Assembly: GCF_037975245.1 (NCBI RefSeq) | Contig: NC_092570.1 | Location: 1,679,501 to 1,743,500 of the forward strand | Source of the DNA: Apostichopus japonicus | Lineage: Eukaryota > Echinodermata > Holothuroidea > Aspidochirotida > Stichopodidae | Length of the DNA: 64,000 nucleotides | Reading direction: 5' to 3' | In this document: in pieces, positions 1-37,875 of the stretch | Layout of the letters: the number at the start of each line of letters is the position of its first letter | Position numbering within the stretch: position 1 is the first letter of the stretch | Program-made: the position numbers and the translations under genes | The notes under the pieces: generated by a model | What the model was told of the DNA's origin: nothing | Databases searched by the model: none | What the model saw: only the letters and a program-made list of their open reading frames with translations

Positions 1-2
1 AA

Positions 3-6263: not shown

Positions 6264-8492
6264 ATGGCATGCCCATCGCCTTGGAAAGACATCGCAGATA
6301 CATTCTTCGAATGTTCAATTTGTTTGGATCTGTTTAAAGAACCGAAACTATTACCATGTCTGCATAGATTCTGTAAACAATGCCTGAAACCTATATTAGA
6401 AGGACAGGCTGGGACATTTGAATGTCCTCTTTGTAAAGATGTCTGTAAAATACCAAACGATAGAATCGATGGATTCAAGACTGACTTCCATATGAAAAGT
6501 ATGCTGCAGTTTATTCAGCTACAGAAAACATTTGAAAACAAAGAAGAGAGAGAATGTATTGGTTGTGAAGAGAAGTTAAAGGTTACAGCGTACTGTTTTA
6601 TATGTAAAGGATTTCTTTGTGTTCAGTGTTATCAATTTCATTTGACCAAGAAGATGTTTGTCACACATCAGAAACACTTATTAGCCTTGAATGATCTTGA
6701 GGGGAAAAGTCTCACGCAAGAAAAACTTGCATCATTGATGGAAGCTCCTAGGTGCCATATTCACCCGGAATATATGGCTCAGTTGTGCTGTTGTACATGC
6801 GGAAACCTCCCAGTTTGTGTGACATGTACGTATGATGAACACAAAGGTCATGAACTTCGTGACGTCAGGAAAGTGGCGAACGACGAAAGGGAACACTTGA
6901 AGGAGATATTGGAAGAACTTGTAAAACGTAAAGATACTGTATTCAACATTGCTGATAAAATCAACAGAGTGAATAATGACATTCTGTCCATTGTCGCTGA
7001 AACTAAAGCAAAATGGAAAAAGCAGTACAAAGATCAGACCAGGGAGTTACAGAATGAAAAAGAGAAAGAAAAGAGAGAATTCAACACATTCAAAACAGGT
7101 CTCGAAGAAAGTACTCGGCACAAAATGAAAGAATTAGAAACAGAAATGGAAGAGAAAATTAGAAAAATAAGAGACGAGTACGACAGATTGATTAAAATTA
7201 AAATTAGGGAATCAAAAGAGAAAGAGGACACCAAAAGAAATGAAATAGGAAAAAGAGAATTGAAGATTGACGAAACAATGAACCGACTTGATGCGGTAAT
7301 GAATGAGAGAAATAAAACAATAGACGAACAACAGCAACGCAAGCTTAGAGAAACACAAAACTTATCAGATCTCTGTAATCAATGGGTCAATAAATTTGAA
7401 AATGTGTCTACTATATCTTCGAGTGTCCTTGCATCATGTAACCACTGGACAGACGCACAGTGTATTCCTGATATAAGAGCAGCCAGTGAACCTCTTGTTG
7501 AGGATATAATGAAAGATTTTCCTGAAATAGAATCTTTATCTGATATAACAATGGATGATTTACCAATATTGTGTATTGATAGAGTACATATATCGGTTAA
7601 TGCAGAATCTGTTGTTGATGTTGATGTGATCAAATCTCGTTGGTTTTGGTTAACTGGTATAACAAGTACTGGCTCTGGTAACATCGTCATCTCTGGGAGA
7701 TTATCACATGCCCATTCATTTATCACAGTCATAAACAGACAAGGACGTCAGATTCGTCATAACAAGATAGATAAAGGCAAAGGGAGCTCTTTTCAAACCT
7801 TTCGTCACTGTGCTGCTTTATCACGTGATAATATAGCTTCGGTTTGTGAATCCAATCAGGTTGTTGTTTATAATATTCAAAATGGGTCCTTTACTCAAAA
7901 TAACATCACGTCCCTCTTTGATGACATCAATGCGGGGGATGCGAAGTATGCGACTTGTATAACTACTGATACTAAACGTGGCCACATCATTGTAGGTACA
8001 TCACGAAAGATTGGATTGCTATTTATATTTGATGAAGAATTTAATTTCATTCGAGCTCTGAAGCTACCAGAGGTTATAAAATGGTCAAGAGATATCCTTT
8101 ATCATGAAGGCGTTCTGCTGATATGCGATGAAGAGAGTAGATGTGCATACGCTGTAACCATGGATACATCTAAAACAGAAGCAGAGTTACTTTACAAGCT
8201 TCCGAAACCAGATATTGACGGACTAACTTGGTATCCTTCGAGTATATGTAAAGACAGGGCAGGTTTTGTATACATCTTGTGGTCACAAACACAGTTTAGT
8301 ACTGGAAAATGTATAATCACACAGTACAGTCAAGATGGTCAGCAGTTGTTGACAACCAAACGGACAGAAGATAGAGTACATTGTATGACAACATTGATGA
8401 CAGAGGAGGGAGAGAAGCTACTTGTAGCATCATGGTCAGGAAAGATGCTTTGTTATGGTCTGGTGAGTATATCTCAGTGTTTCTTATTTTAA
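6264..8492 (+). CDS. TRIM-like RING/B-box/coiled-coil/propeller protein, copy 2
   Basis: The 742-residue protein is intact. The RING is a textbook C3HC4 with zinc ligands C17, C20, C32, H34, C37, C40, C54 and C57. B-box 1 spans about 98-135 (C98, C101, C111, C114, C119, C122, H126, H135), and B-box 2 spans about 164-196 (C164, H167, C176, C179, C185, C188, H193, H196). A charged coiled coil runs from about 204 to 385. A six-bladed beta-propeller with about 48 residues per blade fills 450-735. The family consists of E3 ubiquitin ligases that dimerise through the coiled coil and recognise targets through the C-terminal domain; here the target is unknown. No signal peptide or membrane segment is seen, so a cytosolic site is inferred. 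The start is fixed by conservation in five paralogues and by a splice acceptor 20 nt upstream. TRIM2/3/56/71-like database names are likely but would not imply orthology. Confidence 0.93.
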   Translation: MACPSPWKDIADTFFECSICLDLFKEPKLLPCLHRFCKQCLKPILEGQAGTFECPLCKDVCKIPNDRIDGFKTDFHMKSMLQFIQLQKTFENKEERECIGCEEKLKVTAYCFICKGFLCVQCYQFHLTKKMFVTHQKHLLALNDLEGKSLTQEKLASLMEAPRCHIHPEYMAQLCCCTCGNLPVCVTCTYDEHKGHELRDVRKVANDEREHLKEILEELVKRKDTVFNIADKINRVNNDILSIVAETKAKWKKQYKDQTRELQNEKEKEKREFNTFKTGLEESTRHKMKELETEMEEKIRKIRDEYDRLIKIKIRESKEKEDTKRNEIGKRELKIDETMNRLDAVMNERNKTIDEQQQRKLRETQNLSDLCNQWVNKFENVSTISSSVLASCNHWTDAQCIPDIRAASEPLVEDIMKDFPEIESLSDITMDDLPILCIDRVHISVNAESVVDVDVIKSRWFWLTGITSTGSGNIVISGRLSHAHSFITVINRQGRQIRHNKIDKGKGSSFQTFRHCAALSRDNIASVCESNQVVVYNIQNGSFTQNNITSLFDDINAGDAKYATCITTDTKRGHIIVGTSRKIGLLFIFDEEFNFIRALKLPEVIKWSRDILYHEGVLLICDEESRCAYAVTMDTSKTEAELLYKLPKPDIDGLTWYPSSICKDRAGFVYILWSQTQFSTGKCIITQYSQDGQQLLTTKRTEDRVHCMTTLMTEEGEKLLVASWSGKMLCYGLVSISQCFLF

Positions 8493-11400
8493 TACTACTA
8501 GATATCACAGGATACTCTGATGTAACGACATTGAAAGGGTACATTAAACTGGGACAATATCGCCAAGGATATTATCTTCATGTATTGACTTTATGTATGA
8601 CTAAATAGTGTGTTATATTAACAACTTTAAAGATAGTTTTCGATTGACTTTAGCTCAAGTAATAGTAGAAGTTATTTCCCAAACCCAATATACATGAAAC
8701 TGAAGTGCACACCTTGTTCACTATTTCCTATACGGAATCCTTAAAACGAAGATTAAAGAATTCTAAGGAGATCATGGTATTGTTTTTGACAAGACATCGC
8801 AATGTCTACTGAAGTTGATGTAAAAGAAATAAAACAACAACAAAAACAGAAATGTGAACAGAATATAGGCAAAAAGGAAAGAAGAAAAGAAAAGACAAGA
8901 AAAGAGCAGAAAAGAAGGGATTTGTTTGCTGAAAAACGTAACACAAACAGTCTACATCTAACATGACTTTTTTTTTAGGCCGCATTCTAAATGTACTTCA
9001 AACGTATAGAGAACTGGGTCAACGTTTGTAACTTTATAAATGTTGTTTCCAACAGATGCCAGAATAAAGTCAACCGCGAAAACATACATGAAAGAAAAAA
9101 ATATCCAGAGCATACACCAAACTGAATCGAATATCAAAGGCAGCCGATGAGGAGAGAATAATCAATATTTGAAGAAACAACTAGAAACTTTAAGATGAAA
9201 CAGATCCATTACCTTTATCTGATGAAATGAAGATACAGTTCCTGATGATTATCAACAGCCCCAACGAATAATAGTAAAGAGAAAAAGGTCTGTTTATATA
9301 AGATGGTGGTGATATTGTGAATTTCCGATGTCATAATTCCACTATAACCAATGTGTGATGTCACAATGCCACTAAAAAGTGACGTCTTTCATGTTATATT
9401 TATTTATTAAATAAAAGTATATGTAAATATAAGCCTATTGGTTGTTGTGAACGTCAAAGGTCATTTTGGGTCAATAGGGGTCAAATAGTGAAACCATGTA
9501 AACACGATATCTCAAGAAGAAAAGCTTGTACCAATCTCATATATAGTGATTAGAAGCAGCCTATTGTTTAGAGTGGTGGTCAAAGTTCGTTTGGGTTCAC
9601 TAGGGGTACAATTGTGAAAACCCGGGTAAACACGATATCTCAAGAAGGAGAGCTGGGACCAATCACATATTTCGTGTGAAGTACAACATTGAGTTGAAGA
9701 AGCCAATTAGTTTTTGTGGCGGTCAAAGGAAATTTGGAGTCACCAGAGGTCAAATTGTTGAAACCGTGTTTCATAATCTACCGTATCTCCAACCGACCAG
9801 CCTGTTACATAACATGTGCGTCACGCCTCATAATAATAGTAGAGGTTGTATGCAATTGGAAATTAGCAGATGGGCATCCGTAGATAGTACCAGAGAAAGT
9901 CGAACCAATCGCCATTTACTTAACCGTGTCGCTAACTGCATACGTCATTGCATTACAAAGGTGTCATGTTTATACATACAACTTTCATTGGAATCAACTA
10001 TACCGTTGTGAAACATACCTGTATTAAATATTAGTTCACGTTGTTGAGGTTTTCCTGTCGTATTTCGCAATTGTCGAGATTCAGTGCCAAACAAAAACTT
10101 CAAGTTGGGATGTAGTTACGTTGAAAAAAACGACCAGGCGCCGTTTATGGTTCGCTAGCTGCACGTGCATTATGTACGGGAAGTTTTCATGTGCGGAGAT
10201 TGATCACAAACTTCACGGAGCATTTAAAAACATACAGCGAAATCATCATTTAAAGTCTAAAATAACAATTAATTACAGGGAACAGTTTAAGCTTAAGAAG
10301 TACGTAACATGTTTCAAAGGCATTAATAAATATGCTGGGTTCATATGTTAAATTTTCAACCAATTAGAAAATGTTATTAAACATCACCACGGCTTGGTTA
10401 TGCACAGGCAACCCTTACACAGAAGAGTATAGTACTAGCCGCCCCGGTATAGACTATAAATATTGGTCATCCTCATCTGAGTAGGGTAAAATTGGGTTCG
10501 TTAACACAAACACGTGAAGAAAAAATGCTTCATGTCAGAATACCAATTCACTTGAGGCGGCCAAACATCTCCTACATTATTTCTTCAGGCATTACCCACA
10601 TGCCATCAGTCATAATTCGCCAAATATAAAATTAAAGGAGATTTCAGACAAGACAGTTTGCTGTTACCACTGCCATGATTTTTTGCAAAGATTTTCAGTT
10701 GCGATTGAAAGATAGATGCTCTTTCAACCTTAGATTTTCATTGCGTAAAAGATCGCTTTGATATAGGCAGTGTAATGGAGTAATATCAATGTGTTCGCAC
10801 ACCAATATGCAGCTTAAGCCAAGATAAATAATTGGGAAAATCTCCGAAGTCGCGCCAATCGAAGAAGCGGTTCATAGCAGGAGTGAGGTACTATATAGGC
10901 TAAGGACTTGCGCACACCTATAGCTACTGTATATAGCGTATGTTTAGTACTAGAGGATCCCTAATGTAACAGAAGCCAAGCTATCGTCGTAGGTACTTTT
11001 GAAAATGAATTATTTTTAATTGTTTGAGACACTATACAGTAGCCCAAGCTGCATATGTATGATTCTGCCACATGTTTAACTTTGTTCAACACTTACTTTG
11101 GTGGAAAAATGTTTAAAGTTCACACTGCATAGACACATAATTTTCAAATGTGCGAGTACGTAACACCATATATATGCCAATAGTGCCTGCTCTGTAGTTC
11201 ATAGAAGTATTAATGTTGTAGATCTGTACTATGGAGACTTGAACAGCAGTCATAGTGGCGAGTGAATTGTTCGTTTTGGCGAGAAGAGTTTTAGTCACGT
11301 TCGCCAAATAACTAGTACTTTAAGAAATATTTCAGTATCGAGGCCTGACAAAACTTTAAACATGATTTCTTATAATATAAATCATGGATAATTTTCATAC

Positions 11401-11761
11401 ATGGTAATGGATTTGCCATATTGAGTACAAGAATCTTGTTGCCTGTGAGGTCAAATCTCAATTGCGGTCACCAGACGTCAAACTTTGAAAAACATTTTAC
11501 ATGATATCTAACGATGGGAATCTTGGATACTTCTCATGCTATGGTGTGTGGATGCATCACATTGAGCACAAGACCACTATTGGTTTTGGTGGAGGTGTGT
11601 ATTGCCACGTAGAGTAGACTTATCTGTGTTTGCCTTGTCATAGTGTAAATTGTTCATCAAAGAAGTGGTTCGGACTATTTATATTGTGATAGCTATTTCT
11701 GGTTAACACATAGAAGTCTAGTGCAATGAAGTCATCGTAACCTCAATGCATGTTGCATTCC

Positions 11762-11875
11762 GGTTATTATTATTTTTATTTTTATAGTAATAATAGTTAT
11801 TATTATTGTTACTATTATTATTATTTTTATTTTTATTTTTATTTTTATTTTTATTATTATTATTATTATTATTAA
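11762..11875. repeat. (ATT)n-rich microsatellite
   Basis: Imperfect ATT/ATTTTT repeats. Shorter versions sit at the same place in units 4 (about 19584-19640) and 6 (about 33640-33710). Unit 5 lacks the block. Confidence 0.9.
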
Positions 11876-12362
11876 CCTCGGCTTATCAAATACCTTACTG
11901 TTACATTTATGTAGTACCATAGACAATATCTGATGTTTTTCGCTGTTTTTTTCCTCACTGTGCTTTGTTTTACTTGTGTGTGGGTGTTTATGTTCGTACA
12001 TAAGTGTGTGTATGCGTGTGTGTCTCTGTATTTGTTCGTTGGTAGGTGTGTGTGTGGGTCTTTGTATGTGTATGTACTTTTTTTTTGCGCGTGTGTAAGG
12101 GTGAGTCTTGTATTCATTGAAGGTTGTTTTTTCTGGATGTGTATACATATATTTCGGTATAAGAGGAGAAGAAGAAATACTCAATTCAGAATCAATTTTC
12201 GCATCATGTAAATAATTCCTTTGTATCATTCAGATGACATACCTATGTTGTTATCAGAACTCTAATTATAATCGATGTACCATATACATGTTTACTAATC
12301 GTGAATAAATGAGATGGAAGAAAAATTATTTTTTTTAATTTATTTTTTAATATTATTTTTTA

Positions 12363-12470
12363 TCATGATTATTATTATATATTTTTTATTATTATTATTA
12401 TTAGTAGTATTATTATTGTTATTATTATTAGTAGTATTATTATTGTTATTATTATTAGTAGTAGTATTGA
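12363..12470. repeat. (ATT)n microsatellite with AGTAGT interruptions
   Basis: ATT repeats punctuated by AGTAGT motifs. Homologous AT-rich blocks lie near 20110-20205, 26970-27045 and 34165-34275. Confidence 0.9.
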
Positions 12471-12802
12471 ATTGTGTGTATAGTTTGGGTGCGTGTACGC
12501 ACGGAATGTAGAAATAGGGCACTGCACTAATGCACCATTAAACAAGTTACGGGAGGGTGTAAGGTAATTGCTCAATACATTGACACCCAAATCAGCAACT
12601 GGGGATTTCCATTGTTATCGCGTGGTTTTGGAATTGCATCGGTACTTTGCGTCTCGTCTGTTGTATTTTCAACAACTGGAGAAAGTAGGATTCAAGTAAT
12701 TCTGATATTTCAACTTGAATTACAATAAGGCCTCAATACTCCATCGACTGAAAGCAAATAGCACAAGGTTAGTAACTATTCTGTTCTGCGATCGGTCTCT
12801 GT

Positions 12803-12850
12803 GTGCAATGCACTGATCTGTACACTAGTGTACAGATCAGTGGTTCAATG
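12803..12850. mobile_element. 32-bp perfect palindrome with 8-bp flanking repeat
   Basis: A perfect palindrome (12811-12842; half-site CACTGATCTGTACACT) is flanked by GTGCAATG on the left and GTTCAATG on the right. The unit 6 copy has GTTCAATG on both sides and unit 5 has a single GTTCAATG with no palindrome. This is the pattern of a tiny insertion with an 8-bp target-site duplication. An 8-bp duplication suits hAT or P-type elements, but the family is not determinable. Confidence 0.7.
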
Positions 12851-13250
12851 TATGAAGGAAGGTGCACGGCCATTTTAACCCGGAAGTATTGAATTGTGCA
12901 TGATTGGTTATAGCACTGAAGTACAGTGGATAAGTACGGTATTAACCACGAGCTTTTCTGCTCGTAGCAAATACATGGCATTAAGGACTTGTTAAGGACT
13001 ATAATGGTAGTTTTCGCAATGTTTATTTTTGATATAATGTACCAACCATATCAGTTCTGCTTGGGTGTTCTCGTGAAATCAAAGTCCAAAGTCAATTGTG
13101 TAAGTTCCGTGCGTTATATCCATTGTACATATACGTACAACGTACTGCGTATATTCTCATGTATTTCTTTCTTGGTCCGATTCGTAACAACTTAAGAAAG
13201 ATCAAATGCAGCTAGGTTGATACAAGGGAAAAGGTAAACATTAAAATAAG

Positions 13251-13850: not shown

Positions 13851-13870
13851 ATTAAATTTCCGAGACAAAA

Positions 13871-16096: not shown

Positions 16097-19000
16097 TGTT
16101 GCTAGATATTACTGGATACTCTGACGTAACTACGATGAAAGGGTACATTAAACTGGGACAATATCGCCAATATCTTAATGTATTGACTTTATATATGACC
16201 AAATAGTGTGCTATATTAATAACTTTAAAGATAGTTTTCGATTGACTTTAGCTGAAGTGATAGTAGAAGTTATTTCTCAAACCCAATATACATGAAACTA
16301 AAGTGAACAACTTGTTCACTATTACCTAAATGGAATCGTAAAACAAAGATTAAAGAATTCTAACGAGATCATGGTATTATTGTTGACAAGACATCGCAAT
16401 GCTAACTTAAGTTGATTTAATCGAATGAAAAACAACAAAAACAGAAAATTTCACAGAATAGGCAAAAAGAGAAAAGAAAAGACAAGAAAATAACAGAAAA
16501 GAAGGGATTTGTATGCTGAAAAACTTAACACAAACGGTCTACATCTAACATGACTTGTTTGAGCATTTTAAGTGTGCTTCAAAAATATAGAGAACTTGAT
16601 CAACGTTTGTAACTTTATAAATGTTCTTGCCAACAGATGCCAGAATAAAGTCAACTACGAAAACACACATGAAAGAAACGAATATCCAGAGCATACACCA
16701 CACTGAATCGAATATCAAGGGCAGCCGATGAGGAGAGAATGATCAATATTTGCCAGAAACAACCAGAAACTTTAAGGTGAAACGGATCCATTATCTTTAT
16801 CTGATGAAATAATGATACAGTTCCTGATGACTATCAACAGCCCCGACGAACAATAGTAAAAGAAATAAGTCTGTAATTTAAGATGGTGTGATATTGTGAT
16901 TTTCTGATGTCATAATTCCACTTTAACCAATGTGTGATGTCACAATGCCGGTAAAAAGGGACGTCTTTCATGTTATTTTATTTTTATTTATTAAATAAAT
17001 GTATATGTAAATATAAGGACTGTAGTACTCGCGTCGGAGATCAAATTCCATGACATTTTAAAATTCTATCCAAGATTGTAAAATGAATTTATTGAAAGTA
17101 TCACAACTATTTGTTTTATTGCAAGACCGTGGTTATTTTGCGTGTGCGTGTGACGCCTTGCTTGTAAACACGATATCTCAAGAAGTGACGCTTGGACAAT
17201 CTCAAATTTCGTGTGTAGGAGAACCTCATTTAGGAGTAAGAGCCAGTTATTTTTGGTGGAGGTCATATGTCATTTGAGGTCATCACGGGTCAACTTGTGA
17301 AACCTTGAAAACACGACGTCCCAAGAAAAGAAGCTTTGACCAATATCATATTTCGTGTGTTGGAGTAACACATTCAGTAGAATAAGCCTATTGGTTGTTG
17401 TGAACGTCAAAGGTCACTAGGGGTCACTAGGGGTCAAATAGTGAAACCCTGTAAACACGATATCTCAAGAAGGAGAGCTTGAACCAATCACATATTTCGT
17501 GTGAAGTACAACATTGAGTAGAAGAAGCCTATCGGTTTTTGTGGCGGTCAAAGGTAATTTGGAGTCACCAGAGGTTAAATTGTTGAAATCGTGTTTCATA
17601 ATCTACCGTATCTCCAACCGACCAGCCTATAATATAACATGTGCGTTACGCCTCATAAAATAAAAGAGGTTGTTTGCAAATGAAAATTTGCTAATGGGCA
17701 TCTGTAGTTAGTACCAGAGAAAGTCGAACCAATCGCCATTTACTTAACCGTGTCGCTATAACTGCATACGTCATTGCATTACAAAGGTGTCATATTTGTA
17801 CATACAAGGTTCATTGGAATCAACTATACCGTTGTGAATCACATACCTGTATTAAATATTAGCTCCCGTTGTTGAGGTTTTCCCGTCGTATTTCGCAATT
17901 GTCGAGATTCAGTGCCAAATAAAAACTTCAAGTTGGGATGTAGTTACGCTGAAGAAACGCCCAGGCGCCGTTTATGGTTCGCTAGCTGCACGTGCATTAT
18001 GTACAGGAAGTTTTCATGTGCGGAGATTGATCACAAACTTCCGGAGCATTTAAAAACATACAGCCAAATCATCATTTAAAGTCTAAAATAACAATTCATT
18101 ACAGGGAACAGTTTAAGCTTAAGAAGTACGTAACATGTTTCAAAGGCATTAATAAATATGCTGGGTTCATATGTTAAATTTTCAACCAATTAGAAAATGT
18201 TATTTAACATCACCACGGCTTGGTTATGCACAGGTAACCCCTACACAGAAGAGTAAAGTACTAGCCGCCCCGGTATAGACTATAAACATTGGTCATCCTC
18301 ATCTGAGTAGGGTAAAATTGGGTTCGTTAACACAAACACGTGAAGAAAAAAATGCTTCATGTCAGAATACCAATTCACTTGAGGCGGCCAAACATCTCCT
18401 ACATTATTTCTTCAGGCATTTCCTACATGCCATCAGTCATAATTCGCCAATTATAAAATTAAAAGAGATTTCAGACAAGACAGTTTGCTGTTACCACTGC
18501 CATGATTTTTGCAAAGATTTTCAGTTGCGATTGAAAGATAGATTCTCTTTCAACCTTAGATTTTCATTGTGTAAAAGATCGCTTTGATTTAGGCATTGTA
18601 ATGGAGTAATATCAATATTTTTGCACACCAATATGCATCTTAATCCAAGATAAATAATTGGGAAAATTTTCGAAGTCGCGCCAATCGAAGATGTGCATGG
18701 TTCATAGTAGGAGTGAGGTACTGTATAGGCTTAGGACTCGCGCACACCTATAGCTACTGTATATAGTGTACTAGAGGATCCCTTATGCAACAGAAGCCAA
18801 GCTATCGTCGTAGGTATTTTTATAAATGAATTATTTTTAATTGTTTGAGACACTACAGTAGGCCAAGCTGCATATTTATGATTTTGCGACATGTTTAACT
18901 TTGTTCAACACTTACTTTGGTGGAAAAAATGTTTAAAGTTCACACTGCATAGAAACATAATTTTCCAATGTGCGAGTACGTAACACCATATATCTGCCTA

Positions 19001-21372: not shown

Positions 21373-21392
21373 CTTAAATTTCCGAGACAAAA

Positions 21393-23625
21393 ATGGCATG
21401 CCCATCGCCATGGAAGGACATCGCAGATACATTCTTCGAATGTTCAATTTGTTTGGATCTGTTTAAAGAACCGAAACTATTACCATGTCTGCATAGATTC
21501 TGTAAACAATGTCTGGAACCTATACTAGAAGGACAGGCTGGGACATTTGAATGTCCTCTTTGTAAAGATGTCTGTAAAATACCAAACGATAGAATCGATG
21601 GATTCAAGACTGACTTCCATATGAAAAGTATGCTGCAGTTTATTCAGCTACAGAAAACATTTGAAAACAAAGAAGAGAGAGAATGTATTGGCTGTGAAGA
21701 GAAGTTAAAGGTTACAGCGTACTGTTTTATGTGTAAAGAATTTCTTTGTGTTCAGTGTTATCAATTTCATTTGACCAAGAAGATGTTTGTCACACATCGG
21801 TTACACTTATTAGCCTTGAATGATCTTGAGGGCAAAAGTCTCACACAAGAAAAACTTGCATCATTGATGGAAGCTCCTAGGTGCCATATTCACCCGGAAC
21901 ATATGGCTCAGTTGTGTTGTTGTACATGCGGAAACCTCCCAGTTTGTGTGACATGTACGTATGATGAACACAAAGGTCATGAACTTCGTGACGTCAGGAA
22001 AGTGGCGAACGACGAAAGGGAACAGTTGAAGGAGATATTGGAAGAACTTGTAAAACGTAAAGATACCGTATTCAACTTTGCTGATAAAATCAAAAGAGTG
22101 AATAATGATGTTCTGTCCAGTGTCGCTGAAACTAAAGCAAAATGGAAATCACAGTACGAAGATCAGACCAGGGAGTTACAGAATGAGAAAGAGAAAGAAA
22201 AGAGAGAATTCAACAGATTCAAAGCAGTTCTTGAAGAAAGGACTCGAAAAGAGTTGAAAGAATTAGAAACAGAAATGGAAGAGAAAATTAGAAAAATAAG
22301 AGACGAGTACGACAGAATGAAGAAAATCAAAATTAGGGAATCAAAAGAGAAAGAGGACACCAAAAGAAATGAAACAGGAAAAAGAGAATTCAAGATTAAC
22401 GAAACAATGAACCGACTTGATGCGGTAATGAATCAGAGAAATAAAACAATAGACGAACAACAGCAACGCAAGCTTAGAGAAACACAAAACTTATCAGATC
22501 TCTGTAAACAATGGGTCAATAAATTTGAAAATTTGTCTACTATATCTTCGAGTGTCCTTGAATCATATAACCACTGGACAGACGCACAGTGTATTCCTGA
22601 TATAAGAGCAGCGAGTGAACCTCTGGTTGAGGATATAATGAAAGATTTTCCTGAAATAGAATCTTTATCTGATATAACAATGGATGATTTACCAATATTG
22701 TGTATTGATAGAGTACATATATCGGATAATGTAGAATCTGTTGTTGATGTTGATGTGATCAAAATCTGTTTGGTGTTCGTTAACTGGTATAACAAGTACT
22801 GGCTCTGGTAACATCGTCATCTCTGGGAGATTATCATTGGACCAATCATTTATCACAGTCACAAACAGACAAGGACGTCAGATTCGTCATAACAAGATAC
22901 ATAAAGGCAAAGGGAGGGATCTTCAACCCTCTCGTCACTGTGCTGCTTTATCACGTGATAAGATAGCTTCGGTTTGTGAATCAAATCAGGTTGTTGTTTA
23001 TAATATTCAAGATGGGTCCTTTACTCAAAATAACATCACGTCCCTCTTTGATGACATCAAAACTGTGGATAGAAAGTATGCGACTTGTATAACTACTGAT
23101 ACTTTACGTGGCCACATCATTGTAGGTACATCAAGAAATTCTGGATTGCTATTTATATTTGATGAAGAATTTCATTTCATTCGAGCTCTGAAGCTGCCAG
23201 AGGTTATAAAATGGTCGAGAGATATCCTTTATCATAAAGGCATTCTGCTGATATGCGATGAAAAGAGTAGATGTGCATACGCTGTAACCCTGGATACATC
23301 TAAAACAGAAGCAGAGTTACTATACGAGCTTCCGAAACCAGATATTGACGGACTGACTTGGTATCCTTCGAGTATATGTAAAGACAGGGCAGGTTTTGTA
23401 TACATCTTGTGGTCAGATAGACAGTTAGGTAGTGGAAACGATATGATCACACAGTACAGTCAAGATGGTCAGCAGTTGTTGACAACCAAACGGACAGAAG
23501 ATAGAGCAGGGTGTATGACAACATTGATGACAGAGGAGGGAGAGAAGCTACTTGTAGCTACATCATATGCAGGAAAGATGTTTTGTTATGGTCTGGTGAG
23601 TATATCTCAGTGTTTCTTATTTTAA
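21393..23625 (+). pseudogene. TRIM-like copy 4 with a 1-nt frameshift
   Basis: The first 472 codons give RING, both B-boxes, coiled coil and linker, intact and in frame with the paralogues. Near 22761-22764 an AAAA run replaces AAA. The extra base shifts the frame at the first propeller strand and a stop follows at 22811. The remaining propeller is uninterrupted in the next frame down to 23625 and ends with the usual SQCFLF. A single homopolymer-associated insertion is therefore the only visible lesion. It may be a true pseudogene allele, a sequencing error, or a gene now making a propeller-less TRIM, which could still dimerise with intact paralogues. The shifted half keeps the family's conserved strands, so the lesion is recent if real. 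Confidence 0.8.
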
Positions 23626-26600
23626 TATTACTATATATTACAGGATACTCTGATGTAACGACATTGAAAGGGTACATTAAACTGGGACAATATCGCCAAG
23701 GATATTATCTTAATGTATTGGCTTTATGTATGACCAAATAGTGTGCTATTTTAATAACTTTAAAGATAGTTTTCGATTAATTTTAGCTCAAGTAATAGTA
23801 GAAGTTATTTCCCAAAGCCAATATACATGAAACTAAAGTGAACAACTTGTTCACTATTACCTAAACGGATTCTTAAAACAGATTAAAGAATTCTAACGAG
23901 ATCATGGTATTGTTGTTGACAAGACTTCGCAATGCCAACTTAAGTTGATTTAAAAAATAAAACAGAAATAAATAAACAACAACAAAAACAGAAAAGTGAA
24001 CAGAATAGGCAAAAAGGAAAGAAGAAAAAACAAGAAAAGAACAGAAAAGAAGTGATTTGTTTGCTGAAAAACGTAACACAAATAATCTACAACTAACATG
24101 ACTTGTTTGAGCATTCTAAATGTACTTCAAACGTATCTAGAACTGGATCAACGTTTGTAACTTCATAAATGTTCTTTCCAACAGATGCCAGAATAAAGTC
24201 ATCCGCGAAAACATACATGAAAGAAACGAATATGCAGAGCATACACCACACTGAATCGAATATCAAGGGCAGCCGATGAGGAGAGAATAATAAATATTTG
24301 CAGAAACAACTAGAAACTTTGAGATGAAACGGATCCAATATCTTTATCTGATTAAATGAAGATACAGTTCCTGATTATTATCAACAGCCCCGACGAACAA
24401 TAGTAAAAAGAGATAAGTCTGCTTATGTCAGATGGTGGTCATATTGTGATTTTCTGATGTCATAATTCCACTATAACCACTTGTGATGTCACAATGCCAC
24501 TAAAAAGTGACGTCTTTCATGTTATATTTATTTATTAAATAAATGTATATGTAAATATAAGGACTGTAGTACTCGCGTCGGAGATCAAATTCCGTGAAAC
24601 TTAAAAATTCTATCCAAGGTGGTAAAATGAATTTATTGAAAGTATCACAACTATTTGTTTTATTGCAAGACCGTGTTAATTTTGTGTGTGTGCGTGTGAC
24701 GCCTTGCTAGTAAACACGATATCTCAAGAAGTGAAGCTTGGACAATCTAAAATTTCGTGTGTAGAAGAACCTCATGTAGGAGTAAGAGCCAATTATTTTG
24801 GTGAAGATCATATGTCATTTGAGGTCACCAGTGGTCAAATTTTGAACCCTTGTAAACACAATGTCCCAAGAAAAGAAACTTTGACCAATATCATATTTTC
24901 GTGTGTAGAAAGTAACACATTCAGTAGAATAAGCCTATTGGTTGTTGTGTACGTCAATGTCATTTGGGGTCACTAGGGGTCAAATAGTGAAACCATGTCA
25001 ACACGATATCTCTAGAAGAAAAGCTGGTACCAATCTCATATATAGTGTGAATGAGTAACACATTTATTAGAAGCAGCCTATTGTTTAGAGTGACGGTCAA
25101 AGTTCGTCTGGGTTCACTAGGGGTACAATTGTGAAAACCCCCATTAATTAACACGATATCTCAAGAAGTAGAGCTGGGACCAATCACATATTTTGTGTGA
25201 AGTACAACATTGAGTAGAAAAAGCCAATTGGTTTTTGTGGCGGTCAACGGTAATATGGAGTCACCAGAGGTCAAATTGTTGAAACCGTGTTTCATAATCT
25301 ACCGTATCTCCAACCGACCAGCCTATTAGATAACATGTGCGTTACGCCTCATAATAAAAGAGGTTGTTTGCAATTGAAAATTAGCAGATGGGCATCCGTA
25401 GATAGTACCAGAGAAAGTCGAACCAATCGCCATTTACTTAAACGTGTCGCTAACTGCATACGTCATTGCATTACAAAGGTGGGATGTTTGTTCATACAAC
25501 GTTCATTGGAATGAACTATACCGTTGTGAATTACATACCTGTATTAAATATTTGTTTCCGTTGTTGAAGTTTTCCCGTCGTGTTTCGCAATTGTTGAGAT
25601 TAAGTGCCAAATAAAAACTGAGTTGGAATGTAGTTACGTTGAGGAAACGACCAGGCGCCGTTTAGGAACTTAACTGTCGCCTAGTGTAAAATGGTTCGCT
25701 AGCTGCACGTGCATTATGTACGGGAAGTTTTCATGTTCGGAGATTGATCACAAACTTCACAGGACATTTATAAACATAAAGCGAAATCATCATTTAAAAT
25801 GTAAAATAACAATTCATTACAGGGAACAGTTTAAGCTTACGCAGTACGTAACGTGTTTCAAAGGCATTGATAAATACGCTGGGTTCATATGTTAAATCAT
25901 CAACCAATTAAAATATGTTATTAAACATCACCACGGCTAGGTTATGCACAGGCAACACCTACACAGAAGATTATAGTACTAGCCGCCCCGGTATAGACTA
26001 TAAACATTGGTCATCCTCACCTGAGTAGGGTAAAATTGTGTTCGTTAACACAAACACGTGAAGAAAAAAATGCTTCATGTCAGAATACCAATTCACTTGA
26101 GGCGGCCAAACATCTCCTACACTATTTCTTCAGGCATTTCCTACATGCCATCAGTCATAATTCGCCAAATATAAAATTAAAGGAGATTTCAGACAAGACA
26201 GTTTGCTGTTACCATTGCCATGATTTTTTGTAAAGATTTTCAGTTGCGATTGAAAGATAGATTCTCTTTCAACCTTAGATTTTCATTGTGAAAAAGATCG
26301 CTTTGATTTAGGCAGTGTAATGGAGTAATATCAATGTTTTCGAACACCAATAAGCAGTTTAAGCCAAGATAAATAATTGGGAAAATCACCGAAGTCGCGC
26401 GAATCGAAGAAGCGGTTTATAGTAGGAGTGGGGTACTGTATAGGCTTAGGACTCGTGCACACCTTTATAGCTACTGTATATGGTATATGTTTAGTACTAG
26501 AGGATTCCTAATGTTGCAGAAGCCAAGCTATCGTCGTAGGTATTTTTGAAAATGATTTATTTTTAATTGTTTGAGACACTTTACAGTAGGCCAAGCTGTA

Positions 26601-28332: not shown

Positions 28333-28352
28333 CTTAAATTTCCGAAACAAAA

Positions 28353-30575: not shown

Positions 30576-33500
30576 TATTACTAGATATTACAGGATAATC
30601 TGGTGTAACGAAATTGAAAGGGTACATTATACTGGGACAATATCGCCAATATCTTAATGTATTGACTTTATGTATGACCAAATAGTGTGCTATATTAATA
30701 ACTTTAAAGATAGTTTGCGATTGACTTTAGCTCAAGTAATAGTAGAAGTTAATTCCTAAACCCAATATACATGAAACTAAAGTGCACATCTTGTTCACTA
30801 TTTCCTATACGGAATCGCAAAAGAATTCTAACGAGATCATGGTATTGTTGTTGACAAGACATCGCAATGCCAACTTAAGTTGATTTAAAAGAAATAAAAC
30901 AACAACAAAAACAGAAATGTGAACAGAATATAGGCAAAAGGGAAAAAGAAAAGCCAAGAAAAGAACAGAAAAGAACTTAAAGAAGGGATTTGTTTGCTGA
31001 AAAACGTAACAAAAACAATCTACATCCAACATAACCTTTTTTAGCATTCTCAATGTACTTCAAACGTGTAGAGAATTGGATCAACGTTTGTAACTTTATA
31101 AATGTTCTTTCCAACAGATGCCAGAATAAAGTCAACCGCGAAAACATACATGGAAGAAACGAACATCCAGAGCATACATTACACTGAATCGAATATCAAG
31201 GGCAGCCGATGAGGAGAGAATAAGCAATATTTGCAGAAACAACTAGAAACTTTAAGATGAAACGGATCCAGTATCTTATGAAATGAAGATACAGTTCCTG
31301 ATGATTATCAACAGCCCCGACGAACAATAGTAATAAGAAATAAGACTGTTTATATAAGATGGTGGTTATATTGTGATTCTCTGATGTCATAATCCCACTA
31401 TAACCAATGTGTGATGTCACAATGCTACTAAAGAGTGACGTCTTTCATGTTATTGTAATTATATTTATTGAATAAATGTATATGTAAATATTAGGACTGT
31501 AGTACTCGCGTCGGAGATCAAATTCCATAAAACTAAAAAATTCTATCCAAGATGTAAAAATGAATTAATTGAAAGTATCACAACTATTTGTTTTATTGCA
31601 AGACCGTGTTTATTTTGTGTGTGCGTGTGACGCCTTGCTTATAAACACGATATCTCAAGAATTGAAGCTTGGACTATCTCAAATTTCGTGTGTAGGAGAA
31701 CCTCCATTTAGGAGTAAGAGCCAATTATTTTTGGTGGAGGTCATATGTCATTTGAGGTCACCGGTGGTCAAATTGTGAATCCTTGTAAACACGATATCCC
31801 AAGAAAAGAAGCTTTGATCAATATCATATTTCGTGTGTATAGAGTAACACATGCAGTAGAATAAGCCTATTGGTTGTTGTGAACGTCAAATGTCATTTGG
31901 GGTCAATAAGGGTCAAATAGTGAAACCCTTTAGACACGATATCTCAAGAAGAAAAGCTTGTACCAATCTCATATATAGTGTGAATGAGAACAACATTGAT
32001 TAAAAGCAGCCTATTGTTTAGAGTGGCGGTCAAAGTTCGTTTGGGTTCACTATAGGGGTACAATTGTGAAAACCCGGGTAAACACGATATCTCAAGACGG
32101 AGAGCTGGGACCAATCACATATTTCGTGTGAAGTACAAAATTGAGTAGAAGAAGCCAATTAGTTTTGTGGCGGTCAAAGGAAATTTGGAGTCACCAGATG
32201 TCAAATTTTTGAAACCGTGTTTCATAATCTACCGTATCTCCAACCGACCAGCCTATTAGATAACATATGCGTTACGTCTCATCATAAAAGAGGTTGTTTG
32301 TAATTGAAAAATAGCTAATGAGAAAGTCGAACCAATCGCCATTTACTTAACCGTGTCGCTAACTGCATACGTCTTGCATTACAAAGGTGTGAAAGGGAAA
32401 AAATGCTTCATGTCAGAATACCAATTCACCTGAGGTGGCCAAACATCTCCTACATTATTTCTTCAGGCATTTGCATTTGCCATCAGTCATAATTCGCCAA
32501 ATATACAATTAAAGGAGTTTTGAGACAAGTTTGCTGTATACCACTGCCATGATTTTTTGCAAAGATTTTCAGTTGCGATTGAAAGATAGATGCTCTTTCA
32601 ACCTTAGATTTTCATTGTGTAAAAGATCGCTTTGATTTAGGCAGTGTAATGGAGTAATATCAATATTTTTGCACACCAATATGCAGCTTAATCCATCATA
32701 AATAATTGGGAAAATCTTCGAAGTCGCGCCAATCGAAGATGTGGTTCATAGTAAGAGTGAGGTACTGTATAGGCTTAGGACTTGCGCACACCTATAACTA
32801 CTGTATATAGCGTATGTTTAGTACTAGACGATCCCTAATGTAACAGAAGCCAAGCTATCGTCGTAGGTACTTTTGAAAATGGTTTATTTTTAATTGTTTG
32901 AGACACTACAGTAGCCAAGCTGCGTGTTTATGATTCTCCGACATTTTTAACTTTGTTCAACACTTACTTTTGGCGAAAAAAAATATTTAAAGTTCACACT
33001 GCATAGAAACATAATTTTCCAATGTGCGAGTACGTAACACCATATATCTGCCTAGGTGCCTAATCTGTAGTTCATAGAAAGTATTAATGTTGTAGATCTG
33101 TACTATGGAGACTTGAACAACAGTCATAGTGGCGAGTGAATTTTTCGTTTTGGCGAGAAGAGTTTTAGTCACGTTCGCCAAATAACTAGTACTTTAAAAA
33201 ACATTTCAGTATCGAAGCCTGACAAACCTTTAAAACATGATTTCTCATAATATAAATCATGGATAATTTTCATACATGGTATATGGATTTGGCATATTGA
33301 GTACAAGAATCTTGTTGCCAAATCATAATTGTCAAATCTCAATTGCGGTCACCAGACGTCAAACTTTGAAAACCATTCACATGATATCTAACGATGGGAA
33401 TCGTGGATATTTCTCATACTTAGCGTGTGGATGCATCACATTGAGTACCACTATTTGTCTTGGTGGACGAGTGTAATGCCACGTACAGAAAACTGGTCTG

Positions 33501-35026
33501 TGTTTTGCCTTGCCATAGTGTAAATTGTTCATCAAAGAAGTGGTTCGGACTATTTATATTGTGATAGCTATTTCTGTTTAACAAGTAGAAGTCTAGTGCA
33601 ATGAAGTCATCGAAACCTCAATGCATTTTGAATTCCGGTTATTATTATTTTTATTTTTATAATAATAATAAGCATAATTATGATTATGATTATTATTATT
33701 TTTAATATGAATAACCTCTGCTTATCAAATACCTTACTGTTACATTTATGTAGTAGCATAGACAATCTCTGATGTTTTACGCTGTTTTATTCCTCACTGT
33801 GCTTTGTTTTACTTGTGTGGGGGTGTTTATGTTCGTACTAACGTGTTTGTATGCGTGTGTGTCTCTGTATTTGTATGTGTGTAGGTGTGTGTGTGGGTCT
33901 TTGTATGTGTATGTATATGTACTATTTTGCGCGTGTGCAAGCGTGGGTTTTGTATTCACTGAGGGTTTGTTTTTCTGGATGTGTATCAAATATTTCGGTA
34001 TAAGAGGAGAAGAAGAAATACTCAATTCAGAATCAATTTTCGCATCATGTAAATAATTCCTTTGTATCATTCAGATGCATACCTATGTTGTTATCGGAAC
34101 TCTAAATATAATCAATGTACCATATACATGTTTAATAATCGTGAATAAATCAGATGGAAAAAATATTATTATTATTATTTTTTTTGAATACTATTTTTTA
34201 TCATGATTATTATTTCATTTTTATGATTATTATTATATATTTTTATTATTATTATTATTAGAAGTAGTAGTATTGTCGGAATGTAGAAAAATAGCTCTGC
34301 ACTAAAGCACCATTAAACAAGTTACGGGAGGGTGTAAGGTAATTGCTCAATACATTGACACCCAAATCAGCAACTGGGGATTTCCATTACTATCGCGACT
34401 TGCATCGGTACTTTGCGTCTCGTCTGTTGTATTTCAACAACTGGATAAAGTAGGATTGAAGTTATTCTGATATTTCAACTTGAATTACAATAAGGCCTCA
34501 ATACTCCATCGACTGGAAGCAAATAGCACAAGGTTAGAACTATTCTGTTCTGCGATCGGTCTCTGTGTTCAATGCACTGATCTGTACACTAGTGTACAGA
34601 TCAGTGGTTCAATGTATGAAGGAAGGTGCACGGCCATTTTAACCCGGAAGTATTGAATGGTGCATGATTGGTTATAACACTGAAGTACAGTGGATAATTA
34701 CGGTATTAACCACCAGCTTTTCTGCTCGTAGCAAATACATGGACTTGTTAAGGAATTGTTAAGGACTTTAGTAATGGTAGTTTTCGCAATGTTTACTTGT
34801 GATATAATATACCAACCATATCAGTTCTGCGTGGGTGTTCTCGTGATATCAAAGTCCAAACTCAATTGTATAAGTTCCGTGCATTATATCCATTGTACAT
34901 ATACGTACAACTTACTGCGTATATTCTCATGTTGTTCCTTCTTGGTCCGATTTGTAACAACTTAAGAAAGATCAAATGCAGCTAGGCTGATACAAGACTA
35001 AGGGAAAAGGTAAACATTAAAATAAG
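30576..35026 (+). repeat. Spacer of unit 6
   Basis: Four copies of the ~145-bp repeat lie near 31645, 31788, 31934 and 32082. About 550 bp of the conserved block is missing at 32385, where the homologue of unit 3 position 9975 joins that of 10525. TG/ATT microsatellites (33640-34275) and the palindrome insertion (34567-34614) follow, then the upstream region of copy 6. No supported gene. Confidence 0.75.
34567..34614. mobile_element. 32-bp perfect palindrome with perfect 8-bp TSD
   Basis: The palindrome at 34575-34606 is identical to that at 12811-12842. It is flanked on both sides by GTTCAATG, the exact sequence present once at the empty site in unit 5 (27332-27339). Confidence 0.75.
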
Positions 35027-35626
35027 GTAAGTCTTGGAATGTAAAACGGTGATAATTGCAAACATGTTTCCTTAGTTCATCTGTATTTTGTTATATCATT
35101 AAGTGGGAAATAATATAACCAACTTACATTGGTGATTAGTATCATCGTTAAGCTTGTATATCAATTGCCATTGGTAGTGCTAGGGCTCAAAAAGTCCTAA
35201 CAGAACAGATATCGAGATCATTGCCATGATATCGAATTCATTAAACCCCAGAGTTACTGACTGTTTGAGTAAACTTCAAATGATCATGTATTGTCATTTC
35301 AGGTCAACTAGTTCTTGTATCAAGGTAAAGTTCACTAAGGGCATGGTGTGCTGTTGGTGGTATCGTTCCAGCACTATAAACGTCTATCAGGTAGTATTTG
35401 TCATCAGCTACGCCCGAACAGTTCCATTATGCCAGTGATCGAGTTGCACCAATATCTCGGCTTCTGTGTTTGTATGGAGCAATAATACCCGTCGTACCGT
35501 AGGTTACAAAGAACAGTTCTTGAATTCAGTTCAATAAAGGTCTTTCTAAATTAATTTTCTTATCCTCAATTTGTTACTCCAGATTATGATATTCATAAAC
35601 ACTGATCTTAATAACTTGCTTTACAG
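35027..35626 (+). other. Putative 5'-UTR intron of copy 6
   Basis: Donor AATAAG|GTAAGT and acceptor TTGCTTTACAG|CTTAAA, 20 nt before the start codon. Confidence 0.5.
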
Positions 35627-35646
35627 CTTAAATTTCCGAGACAAAA

Positions 35647-37875
35647 ATGGCCTGCCCGTCGCCTTGGAAAGACATGGCAGATACATTCTTCGAATGTTCA
35701 ATTTGTTTGGATCTGTTTAAAGAACCGAAACTATTACCATGTCTGCATAGATTCTGTAAACAATGTCTGGAACCTATATTAGAAGGACAGGCTGGAACAT
35801 TTGAATGTCCTCTTTGTAAAGATGTCTGTAAAATACCAAACGATAGAATCGATGGATTCAAGACTGACTTCCATATGAAAAGTATGCTGCAGTTTGTTCA
35901 GCTACAGAAAACATTTGAAAACAATGAAGAGAGAGAATGTATTGGCTGTGAAGAGGAGTTAAAGGTTACAGCGTACTGTTTTATGTGTAAAGAATTTCTT
36001 TGTGTTCAGTGTTATCAATTTCATTTGACCAAGAAGATATTTGTCAAACATCAGAAACACGTATTAGCTCTGAATGATCTTGAGGGGAAAAGTCTCACAC
36101 AAGAAAAACTTGCATCATTGATGGAAGCTCCTAGGTGCCATATTCACCCGGAACACATGGCTCAGTTGTGTTGTTGTACATGCGGAAACCTCCCAGTTTG
36201 TGTGACATGTACGTATGAGGAACACAAAGGTCATGAACTTCGTGACGTCAGGAAAGTGGCGAACGACGAAAGGGAACACTTGAAGGAGATATTGGAAGAA
36301 CTTGTAAAACGTAAAGATACTGTATACAACATTGCTGATAAACTCAACAGAGTTAATAATGACGTTCTGTCCATTGTCGCTGAAACTAAAGTAAAATGGA
36401 AATCACAGTACGAAGATCAGACCAGGAAGTTACAGAATGAGAAAGAGAAAGAAAAGAGAGAATTCAACAGATTCAAAACAGGTCTTGAAGAAAGTACTCG
36501 AAACAAAATGAAAGAATTAGAAACAGAAATGGAAGAGAAAATTAGAAAAATAAGAGACGAGTACGACAGAATGAAGAAAATCAAAGTTAGGGAATCTAAA
36601 GAGAAAGAGGACACCAAACGAAATGAAATAGAAAATAGAGAATTAAAGATTGACGAAACAATGAAAAAACTTGATGCGGTAATGAATGAGAGAAATAAAT
36701 CAATAGACGAGCAACAGCAACGCAAGCTTAGAGAAACACAAAACTTATCAGATCTTTGTAATCAATGGGTCAATAAATTTGAAAATTTGTCTACTATATC
36801 TTCGAGTGTCCTTGAATCATATAACCACTGGACAGACGCACAGTGTATTCCTGATATAAGAGCAGCGAGTGAACCTCTTGTTGAGGATATAATGAAAGAT
36901 TTTCCAGAAATAGAATCTTTATCTGATATAACAATGGATGATTTACCAATATTGTCTATTGATAAAGTACATATATCGGATAATGTAGAATCTGTTGTTG
37001 ATGCTGATGTGATCAGAGATAAATGGTTTTGGTTATCTGGTATAACAAGTACTGGCTCTGGTAACATCGTCATTTCTGGGAGATTATCATTTGACCATTC
37101 ATTCATCACAGTCATAAACAAACAAGGACGTCAGATTAGTCATAACAAGATAGATGAAGGCAAACGGATTCGTCTTCCCTTTCGTCACTGTGCTGCTTTA
37201 TCACGTGATAAGATAGCTTCGGTTTGTGAATCCAATCAGCTTGGTGTTTATGATATTCGTGATGGGTCCTTTACTCAAAATAACATCACGTCCCTCTTTG
37301 ATGACTTCGAAACGGTGGATGGGAAGTATGCGACTTGTATAACTACTGATCCAATAAGTGGCAACATCATTGTAGGTACATCACGAAAGATTGGATTGCT
37401 ATTTACATTTGATGAAGACTTGAATTTCATTCGAGCTCTGAAGCTGCCAGAGGTTATAAAATGGTCAAGAGATATCCTTTACCATGAAGGCGTTCTGCTG
37501 ATATGCGATACAGAGAGTAGATGTGCATACGCTGTTACCATTGATATATCTAAAACAGAAGTAGAGTTACTATACGAGCTTCCGAAACCAGATATTGACG
37601 GACTGACTTGGTATCCTTGGAGTATATGTAAAGACAGGGCAGGCTTTGTATACATCTTGTGGTCAGAAGAACAGGGTAGTACTACTAAACGTATCATCAC
37701 ACAGTACAGTCAAGATGGTCAGCAGTTGTTGACAACCAAACGGACAGAAGACAGAGTAAGGTGTATGACAACATTGATGACAAAGGAGGGAGAGAAGCTA
37801 CTTGTAGCTACATCGTGGTCAGGAAAGATGTTTTGTTATGGTCTGGTGAGTATATCTCAGTGTTTCTTATTTTAA
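35647..37875 (+). CDS. TRIM-like RING/B-box/coiled-coil/propeller protein, copy 6
   Basis: Intact 742-residue paralogue, the last gene of the array. RING and B-box ligands match copy 2. The propeller is the most divergent of the set in its loops (VDADVIRDKWFW, DEGKRIRLPFRHC, LGVYDIRDGSF, DPISGNIIVG, WYPWSICK, SEEQGSTTK), while the strands between them are unchanged. The coiled coil has its own variant (ETMKKLDAV). Cytosolic E3 ligase activity is inferred from the C3HC4 RING; nothing in the sequence identifies the partner. Confidence 0.93.
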   Translation: MACPSPWKDMADTFFECSICLDLFKEPKLLPCLHRFCKQCLEPILEGQAGTFECPLCKDVCKIPNDRIDGFKTDFHMKSMLQFVQLQKTFENNEERECIGCEEELKVTAYCFMCKEFLCVQCYQFHLTKKIFVKHQKHVLALNDLEGKSLTQEKLASLMEAPRCHIHPEHMAQLCCCTCGNLPVCVTCTYEEHKGHELRDVRKVANDEREHLKEILEELVKRKDTVYNIADKLNRVNNDVLSIVAETKVKWKSQYEDQTRKLQNEKEKEKREFNRFKTGLEESTRNKMKELETEMEEKIRKIRDEYDRMKKIKVRESKEKEDTKRNEIENRELKIDETMKKLDAVMNERNKSIDEQQQRKLRETQNLSDLCNQWVNKFENLSTISSSVLESYNHWTDAQCIPDIRAASEPLVEDIMKDFPEIESLSDITMDDLPILSIDKVHISDNVESVVDADVIRDKWFWLSGITSTGSGNIVISGRLSFDHSFITVINKQGRQISHNKIDEGKRIRLPFRHCAALSRDKIASVCESNQLGVYDIRDGSFTQNNITSLFDDFETVDGKYATCITTDPISGNIIVGTSRKIGLLFTFDEDLNFIRALKLPEVIKWSRDILYHEGVLLICDTESRCAYAVTIDISKTEVELLYELPKPDIDGLTWYPWSICKDRAGFVYILWSEEQGSTTKRIITQYSQDGQQLLTTKRTEDRVRCMTTLMTKEGEKLLVATSWSGKMFCYGLVSISQCFLF

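Follow-up and report, generated by a model that had tools for sequence, protein, structure and literature searches.

Why should neighboring genes keep one part of their proteins nearly constant and vary another part in short, regularly spaced patches? The question is raised by a 64,000-nucleotide stretch of the genome of the sea cucumber Apostichopus japonicus (C10:1679501-1743500 of a 671.6-Mb assembly), hereafter called the window, which contains six head-to-tail TRIM-like paralogues, one clipped at the window edge and one frameshifted. Each intact copy is one open frame of ~740 codons, the five start codons in the window are spaced 7.0 to 7.6 kb apart, and the long gene-bearing stretches share about 89.5 to 93% DNA identity, with a divergence of about 0.08 in the noncoding DNA flanking the copies. 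The original prediction for this locus had described six paralogues varying in the loops of a C-terminal propeller; the count of six was confirmed, copy 1 falling outside the interval that it gave. Our analysis likewise confirmed its main observation, periodic variable patches in the C-terminal domain of tandem TRIM paralogues, and located positive selection in loops predicted to lie on one face of that domain.

Among the six copies, mean pairwise amino acid variability is 0.051 in residues 1 to 200, 0.133 in residues 201 to 380, 0.064 in residues 381 to 430, and 0.175 in residues 431 to 742. Peaks of smoothed variability above 0.25 lie at residues 447, 459, 482 to 484, 510, 521 to 523, 538, 558, 572, 584, 624, 680, 704, and 725. 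Most of the twelve patches that had been predicted were recovered in this way, but 606 and 657 have no peak of that height, and the peak closest to the patch predicted at 533 is that at 538. Periodicity is strongest at 24.5 residues, or half of ~49 (P = 0.005 to 0.007 for the best period anywhere, from block shuffles of 4, 8, and 12 residues), and the autocorrelation of the smoothed curve is maximal at 48 to 49 residues (0.27 to 0.28). The period signal is thus two variable patches per blade unit of ~49 residues, and it is in this form that the predicted blade periodicity of about 48 residues holds; a period of 47 to 51.5 residues was not significant by itself (P = 0.20 to 0.54). By counting across the six copies, the ratio of nonsynonymous (dN) to synonymous (dS) change, omega, is 0.12 in the RING, 0.33 in the B-box, 0.53 in the coiled coil, and 1.13 in the propeller. 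The predicted patches have dN values between 0.06 and 0.60, and 9 of the 12 show an omega above 1.

Positive selection on the loops of the C-terminal domain

Codon models were fitted with our own program, which in one check against IQ-TREE returned an M0 log likelihood of -2648.5034 against -2648.5033. For the C-terminal domain of the six copies, M2a improved on M1a by twice the log-likelihood difference (2dlnL) of 91, with an omega of 9.8 on 9% of sites; the corresponding values were 0 for residues 1 to 200 and 10 for residues 201 to 380. The signal persisted when gap columns were removed (64), on a star tree (116), and without copy 4 (60), and all four sets of three sequences kept it (28 to 49).

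Places related to these genes number at least 163 in the genome, and 149 of them lie in 15 arrays (three or more places with gaps under 120 kb) on C1, C2, C10, C17, and C20; 14 of the places, between 1.62 and 1.72 Mb, form the array to which the window belongs. Searches with two C-terminal domains scored 126 and 128 places, and the count of 163 is their union, places being counted separately when their starts differ by more than 800 bases; broken copies are included, and the count is a minimum, since scoring was confined to the best candidates. An open frame of at least 600 amino acids with a RING was present in 80 of the 93 places examined (89 fetched loci, including copy 1, plus the four intact window copies, with copy 4 excluded), a share that is not a genome-wide rate because the fetched set favored the best matches; the other 13, lacking such a frame within the fetched stretch, were excluded. 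All 80 open members keep the RING ligand pattern. A B-box pattern of our own making was set aside: it fits 14 of the 80 and misses copy 2, although Pfam matches copy 2. Certain pairs lying far apart within an array on C10 or C1 are nearly identical, at 0.4 to 0.8% divergence (copy 5 and L013, copy 6 and L011, L034 and L035, L031 and L033). The selection tests used 54 of the 80 open members, in clades I, II, and III of 18, 19, and 17 genes; the remainder, mostly C17 members, were left out, as were L001 to L008 and L058. In five members compared, clade III has 36 to 39% identity to copy 2. Branch lengths for the clades were IQ-TREE HKY+G estimates multiplied by one fitted scale factor, and site posteriors are naive empirical Bayes, not Bayes empirical Bayes, values.

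The window copies alone gave no Pfam NHL match and nothing of note in NCBIfam (three C-terminal domains), and hhalign found no self-repeat within their C-terminal domain; matches of the six-copy profile to RNase A in the Protein Data Bank are chance (best E value, 0.015). When a profile of 29 members, reaching down to 32% identity to copy 2, was compared with solved structures, the top match was Mei-P26 (E = 4.5e-4; best stretch, 57 residues), and the Brat NHL propeller was matched over profile positions 144 to 310 of 312 (E = 8.2e-4). Only TRIM-NHL propellers fell below an E value of 0.1, the next match being at 0.13. B30.2 (PRY/SPRY) was not among the Pfam matches of the four complete copies or among the best 25 of 27 families for the 29 C-terminal domains. 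On this evidence a beta-propeller is a well-supported prediction for the C-terminal domain, and an NHL-like propeller of six blades is what the 29-member profile and the strand assignment favor, without proving it. In NHL and WD40 propellers alike, blade strands A to D are antiparallel, which places the D-A and B-C loops on one face, here called the top, and the A-B and C-D loops on the other.

In clades I, II, and III (the order in which values are given hereafter), M2a improved on M1a by a 2dlnL of 253, 260, and 332, with a selected class of omega 6.0, 5.9, and 7.8 on 16, 14, and 10.5% of sites. In the D-A and B-C loops, sites with a posterior above 0.95 number 24 of 74, 21 of 69, and 14 of 68, compared with 0 of 31, 1 of 31, and 0 of 29 in the A-B and C-D loops and 6 of 181, 5 of 180, and 6 of 181 in the strands (Fisher's test of top loops against the rest, P = 6e-11, 1e-9, and 1e-5); 9, 11, and 7 of the 12 top loops contain such sites. 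Omega counted over all pairs is 1.63, 1.87, and 1.63 on the top face and 0.80, 1.02, and 0.49 on the bottom, and the closest disjoint pairs, a tree-free comparison, gave 1.69, 1.94, and 1.51 against 0.63, 0.76, and 0.45. As had been predicted, one face, as assigned by homology, diversifies, with dN/dS above 1 at its loops, and selected variation is not scattered over the strands and both faces. When the loop labels were slid along the protein, the top-face count was in every clade highest at offset 0 among the even offsets listed and fell to near zero at a shift of about a quarter blade. The selected sites also recur between clades: over the whole propeller, clades I and II share 16 (P = 1e-12), II and III share 9 (P = 5e-6), and I and III share 8 (P = 2e-4), and sites 482, 511, 513, 679, 706, and 724 are selected in all three. 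Inside the top loops, the overlap is significant for clades I and II (P = 3e-5) and for II and III (P = 0.016).

The RING and B-boxes yielded no selection signal and no selected sites (2dlnL of 3.6, 0.0, and 1.2). That these domains form a constant chassis was rightly predicted, but the coiled coil included in it varies moderately (omega of 0.40 to 0.64 in the three clades), and the propeller strands, also said to be almost constant, are conserved without being that constant (0.72 to 0.89). The selected sites of the coiled-coil region (residues 201 to 400) are 253 and 310 in clade I, 249, 304, and 305 in clade II, and 214 in clade III, and perhaps mark a second interaction surface.

Could such a pattern arise without selection? 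If the loops changed after duplication simply since nothing holds them, the frameshift in copy 4 and the 13 places without a long open frame with a RING would be understandable as decay. However, 80 of the 93 places are open, all with RING ligands, and relaxed constraint gives an omega of up to 1, not 5.9 to 7.8 on 10.5 to 16% of sites; in addition, the B-C loop of blade 5, unlike the other loops, has seven 27-base windows that diverge more than any window of the flanking noncoding DNA (up to 0.45 against 0.31). Relaxation or decay is thus extremely improbable. A mutation hotspot, multi-base mutation, or gene conversion is very improbable, although some observations speak for them: raw dS in the top loops is 1.6 to 1.9 times that in the strands; two- and three-base codon differences reach 8.6% and 3.0% in the patches against 2.6% and 0.3% in flank triplets; and 52 to 55% of informative site pairs conflict. 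Same-residue fourfold sites are higher in top loops than in strands in two clades (0.100 against 0.073 and 0.097 against 0.074) and about equal in the third (0.081 against 0.078), but fourfold sites at invariant residues give 0.056, 0.068, and 0.085 in the top loops against 0.063, 0.068, and 0.098 in the strands, from only 4, 3, and 5 columns. A PHI-type test returned P = 0.61 for five copies over the whole gene and P = 0.036 for six copies from the coiled coil onward. Yet recombination simulated without positive selection, with labels reshuffled every 15 codons, produced a 2dlnL of 3.5 to 18.1 in six replicates (up to 2.3 in six replicates of an unshuffled control), compared with 268 in the real data, and the three-sequence sets, which have a single topology, retain their signal. 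Overall, relaxed constraint, a mutation hotspot, and recombination artifact are not the main cause of the pattern. Because multi-base codon changes may inflate omega, we put more weight on where the selected sites lie than on the size of omega.

What the loop face may bind

The family is probably a germline recognition repertoire of TRIM-type ubiquitin ligases with a diversifying propeller face, whose likeliest targets would be fast-evolving non-self; the immune role is suggested by analogy. In each protein, a conserved chassis of RING, B-boxes, and coiled coil would end in an NHL-like propeller, on which the D-A and B-C loops, up to twelve of them, would form a recognition surface under strong diversifying selection. 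Because the chassis is conserved while the face diversifies, each copy may recognize different, ever-changing targets, binding its own through the loop face and directing ubiquitin onto it. Such targets would most likely be proteins of a virus or other intracellular pathogen, and the mode of action would resemble that of finTRIM or TRIM5, with a propeller replacing B30.2. New members would be supplied by tandem duplication plus some exchange between copies. Intracellular recognition of non-self leading to ubiquitination is, by analogy with finTRIM, the simplest reading. More tentatively, and with slightly less than even confidence, we suggest that the 163 or more gene places may represent intracellular, germline-encoded propeller receptors of holothurians, with a twelve-loop, antibody-like face that would bind diverse non-self proteins and bring ubiquitin to them.

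Compared with other propeller sites, the selected sites carry more Trp and Arg in every clade (Arg at 0.085 against 0.048, 0.100 against 0.042, and 0.176 against 0.026) and less Leu and Ile, and Tyr is raised in clades I and II and lower in clade III. Between genes, the net charge of the top face ranges from -5 to +4, -7 to +6, and -15 to +6. The Arg enrichment, together with profile homology to Brat and Mei-P26, could point to a repertoire for sensing or restricting RNA, every copy having an RNA of its own to read, in the manner of Brat and LIN41 with their NHL fold; the NHL domains of these two proteins bind RNA in different ways, according to the portion of the source available to us (PMC5908797). 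Such a repertoire is unlikely, given that a top-face charge of -15 to +6 across the clades indicates no kept positive pocket and that Asp and Glu are present at selected sites. Composition and charge spread would fit varied protein binding better than a kept RNA pocket like that of LIN41.

Several observations weigh against a non-self recognition repertoire, or against parts of the case for it. In the six copies, three of the predicted patches (533, 557, and 724) have an omega below 1. The predicted face and blade count rest on the profile homology to Brat and Mei-P26, and among the 29 single members Pfam NHL was matched by 4 (best E value, 0.067), the WD40 model CDC20/Fizzy by 10 (best E value, 1.8e-5), and WD40 by 9. 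The register of strands and loops was drawn after the window copies had been seen, so that only clades II and III are independent of it; the overlap of clades I and III inside the top loops is not significant (P = 0.20); one selected site of the six copies and of clade II, 571, lies on the bottom face; and the coiled coil carries a weaker signal of its own (2dlnL of 16.9, 22.7, and 14.1, with one to three sites). The nearly identical pairs might reflect recent duplication, conversion, or assembly duplicates, the last of which would count in the same direction. Finally, a scan of the 1 kb preceding each of the five complete starts found no immune-type motif (NF-kB, interferon-stimulated response element [ISRE], IRF, or AP-1 pattern).

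This last result would also suit a diversifying surface directed at self, in which the genes encode E3 substrate-specificity variants for development, regeneration, or gamete or allorecognition and the selection would stem from new functions or from intraspecific conflict. Selection acting on the face is neutral as to what the face binds, and the known NHL proteins LIN41 and Brat are regulators in the available passages of PMC5908797. Against a self target stand the selection of the same loop sites in separate clades and the very large size of the family, which suggest a continuing arms race with many targets. In the sea urchin, moreover, TRIM45, 71, 33, and 56 are raised in phagocytes stressed by ultraviolet (UV) light in the excerpts of PMC13043383, a response to stress and not to infection, in genes only putatively related to the present family. 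We consider a self-directed surface rather unlikely and prefer the recognition of non-self. If that recognition is real, array content probably differs between individuals, and a role would be suggested for many uncharacterized echinoderm TRIM genes. The proposal is directly testable: candidate contact residues can be named singly, and members of this sea cucumber genus are raised on farms and can be challenged.

The gene copies and their neighbors

The features of the window are collected in Table 1. Copy 1 has 85% identity to copy 2 over residues 225 to 742. All four complete copies match the Pfam RING family zf-C3HC4 (E = 1.4e-10 to 2.3e-10) and have a zf-B_box at about residues 161 to 200, over the curated cutoff in two of the four. 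The solved structures nearest to the RING of copy 2 are those of TRIM2, TRIM3, and TRIM56, and the intact RING ligands make these proteins putative E3 ubiquitin ligases. Residues 201 to 380 are long and charged, as judged by eye. The one-base frameshift of copy 4, which is either a pseudogene or an assembly error, sits in the first D-A loop of the propeller, a variable loop.

Table 1. Coordinates of the TRIM-like copies, the predicted top-face loops of copy 2, and other features, counted from the first base of the window
Feature	Position	Strand	Remarks
Copy 1, 3' part	1-1562	+	Coiled coil end and propeller; no RING or B-boxes within the window; frame open from base 3, open reading frame (ORF) 45-1562
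Copy 2, intact 742-aa TRIM-like protein	6264-8492	+	ORF; RING Pfam E = 1.4e-10
Copy 2 residues 457-460, D-A loop into blade 1	7632-7643	+	459 selected in clades I, II
Copy 2 residues 479-484, B-C loop blade 1	7698-7715	+	482 selected in all three clades
Copy 2 residues 503-513, D-A loop blades 1/2	7770-7802	+	511, 513 selected in all three clades
Copy 2 residues 530-532, B-C loop blade 2	7851-7859	+	Without selected sites in clades I, II, or III
Copy 2 residues 553-561, D-A loop blades 2/3	7920-7946	+	560 selected in clades I, II
Copy 2 residues 580-584, B-C loop blade 3	8001-8015	+	580 selected in clade II
Copy 2 residues 603-608, D-A loop blades 3/4	8070-8087	+	607 selected in clades II, III
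Copy 2 residues 623-627, B-C loop blade 4	8130-8144	+	623 selected in clades I, II; 624, 626 in III
Copy 2 residues 650-658, D-A loop blades 4/5	8211-8237	+	657 selected in clade I, 654 in II
Copy 2 residues 675-682, B-C loop blade 5	8286-8309	+	Most variable stretch, length varies too; 679 selected in all three clades
Copy 2 residues 702-706, D-A loop blades 5/6	8367-8381	+	706 selected in all three clades
Copy 2 residues 724-726, B-C loop blade 6	8433-8441	+	724 selected in all three clades
Copy 3, intact, 741 aa	13871-16096	+	ORF, Pfam RING/B-box
Copy 4, frameshifted	21393-23625	+	Open frames 21393-22811 and 22837-23625
Copy 5, intact, 740 aa	28353-30575	+	ORF, Pfam RING/B-box
Copy 6, intact, 742 aa	35647-37875	+	ORF, Pfam RING/B-box
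Minisatellite after copy 3	17161-17588
Minisatellite after copy 4	24812-25290
Minisatellite after copy 5	31642-32193
Minisatellite after copy 6	39049-39465
SALMFamide neuropeptide precursor	43553-44509	-	GYSPFMF repeats in 57-bp units
Inverted repeat, 91%	44932-45122 / 60649-60837		Arms about 15.5 kb apart
Open frame with reverse transcriptase and GIY-YIG domains	50285-51688	-
U2 snRNA-like match	60645-60731		Overlaps one arm of the inverted repeat

The minisatellite downstream of copies 3 to 6 has a unit of about 131 to 145 bp, and related sequence occurs near position 9417, after copy 2. Its arrays contain RGGTCA half-sites, which we take to be nuclear-receptor-like, all on the same strand within the arrays; the whole window has 50, against 12 in reverse. 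Farther along, the frame with reverse transcriptase and GIY-YIG domains is presumably a Penelope-like retroelement, and the match to U2 small nuclear RNA (snRNA) is perhaps a U2-derived retro-sequence. Set beside the eight SALMFamide peptides published for A. japonicus, in the section of PMC3432112 that gives them, six of those in the window are identical and two have one-residue changes, ARYSPF(M for T)F and VPEL(D for A)ESDGG, a likeness that supports an echinoderm host, A. japonicus or a close relative.

Comparison with known systems

Among the literature matches listed, none describes positively selected loops in a TRIM family of propeller type, or mentions this sea cucumber family, which is weak evidence of absence as most subscription journals lie outside the coverage; passages from the 2017 A. 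japonicus genome paper mention 74 tandem clusters and, within those passages, no TRIM (PMC5638244). The excerpted account of the sea urchin Strongylocentrotus purpuratus gives 140 genes annotated as TRIM, several of them raised in UV-treated coelomocytes, with no propeller or selection analysis among its passages (PMC13043383), and the likeness to the present family is by TRIM annotation only.

The finTRIM genes of teleosts resemble the sea cucumber family in their many duplicates, their conserved chassis of RING, B-box, and coiled coil (RBCC), and the positively selected loops of their C-terminal binding domain, as described in the available part of PMC2657112. They differ in having B30.2 where an NHL-like propeller is predicted here, in an echinoderm host, and in the few selected sites that the same passages place near the finTRIM RING, whereas there are none near the RING here (PMC2657112). 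TRIM5alpha, as told in that paper's excerpts, likewise joins an E3 chassis to a target-binding domain with hypervariable regions under selection (PMC2657112), but it varies between primate species and on a B30.2 domain, whereas the sea cucumber family varies between the paralogues of one genome and on a predicted propeller.

Members of TRIM subfamily C, the TRIM-NHL proteins, have a C-terminal six-bladed NHL propeller (PMC3503706). TRIM2, TRIM3, TRIM71, Brat, and Mei-P26 belong here, and the likeness lies in a RING nearest to those of TRIM2, TRIM3, and TRIM56 and in the profile matches to Brat and Mei-P26. Human TRIM-NHL members show diversity at the blade-connecting loops and the top opening, in the portion of PMC9634614 consulted, but few members are known and their differences lie between ancient genes, whereas the present family counts 163 places or more and has a dN/dS above 1 on its predicted face. 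TRIM56 is matched by the RING of copy 2 (E = 5e-15), has an NHL-like domain (PMC9634614), and has antiviral roles, according to partial texts. No TRIM56 repertoire is described in the parts of the literature surveyed, however, and the match made here is to its RING.

As far as could be seen, then, a TRIM recognition repertoire is known as a kind, and what is new is the propeller scaffold, the size of the family, and the loop-by-loop mapping to one face. Large animal recognition repertoires are known on few scaffolds, and an NHL-like propeller would add one to innate recognition. If this interpretation is correct, a further fold would stand beside B30.2 and leucine-rich repeats as the scaffold of a diversifying recognition library.

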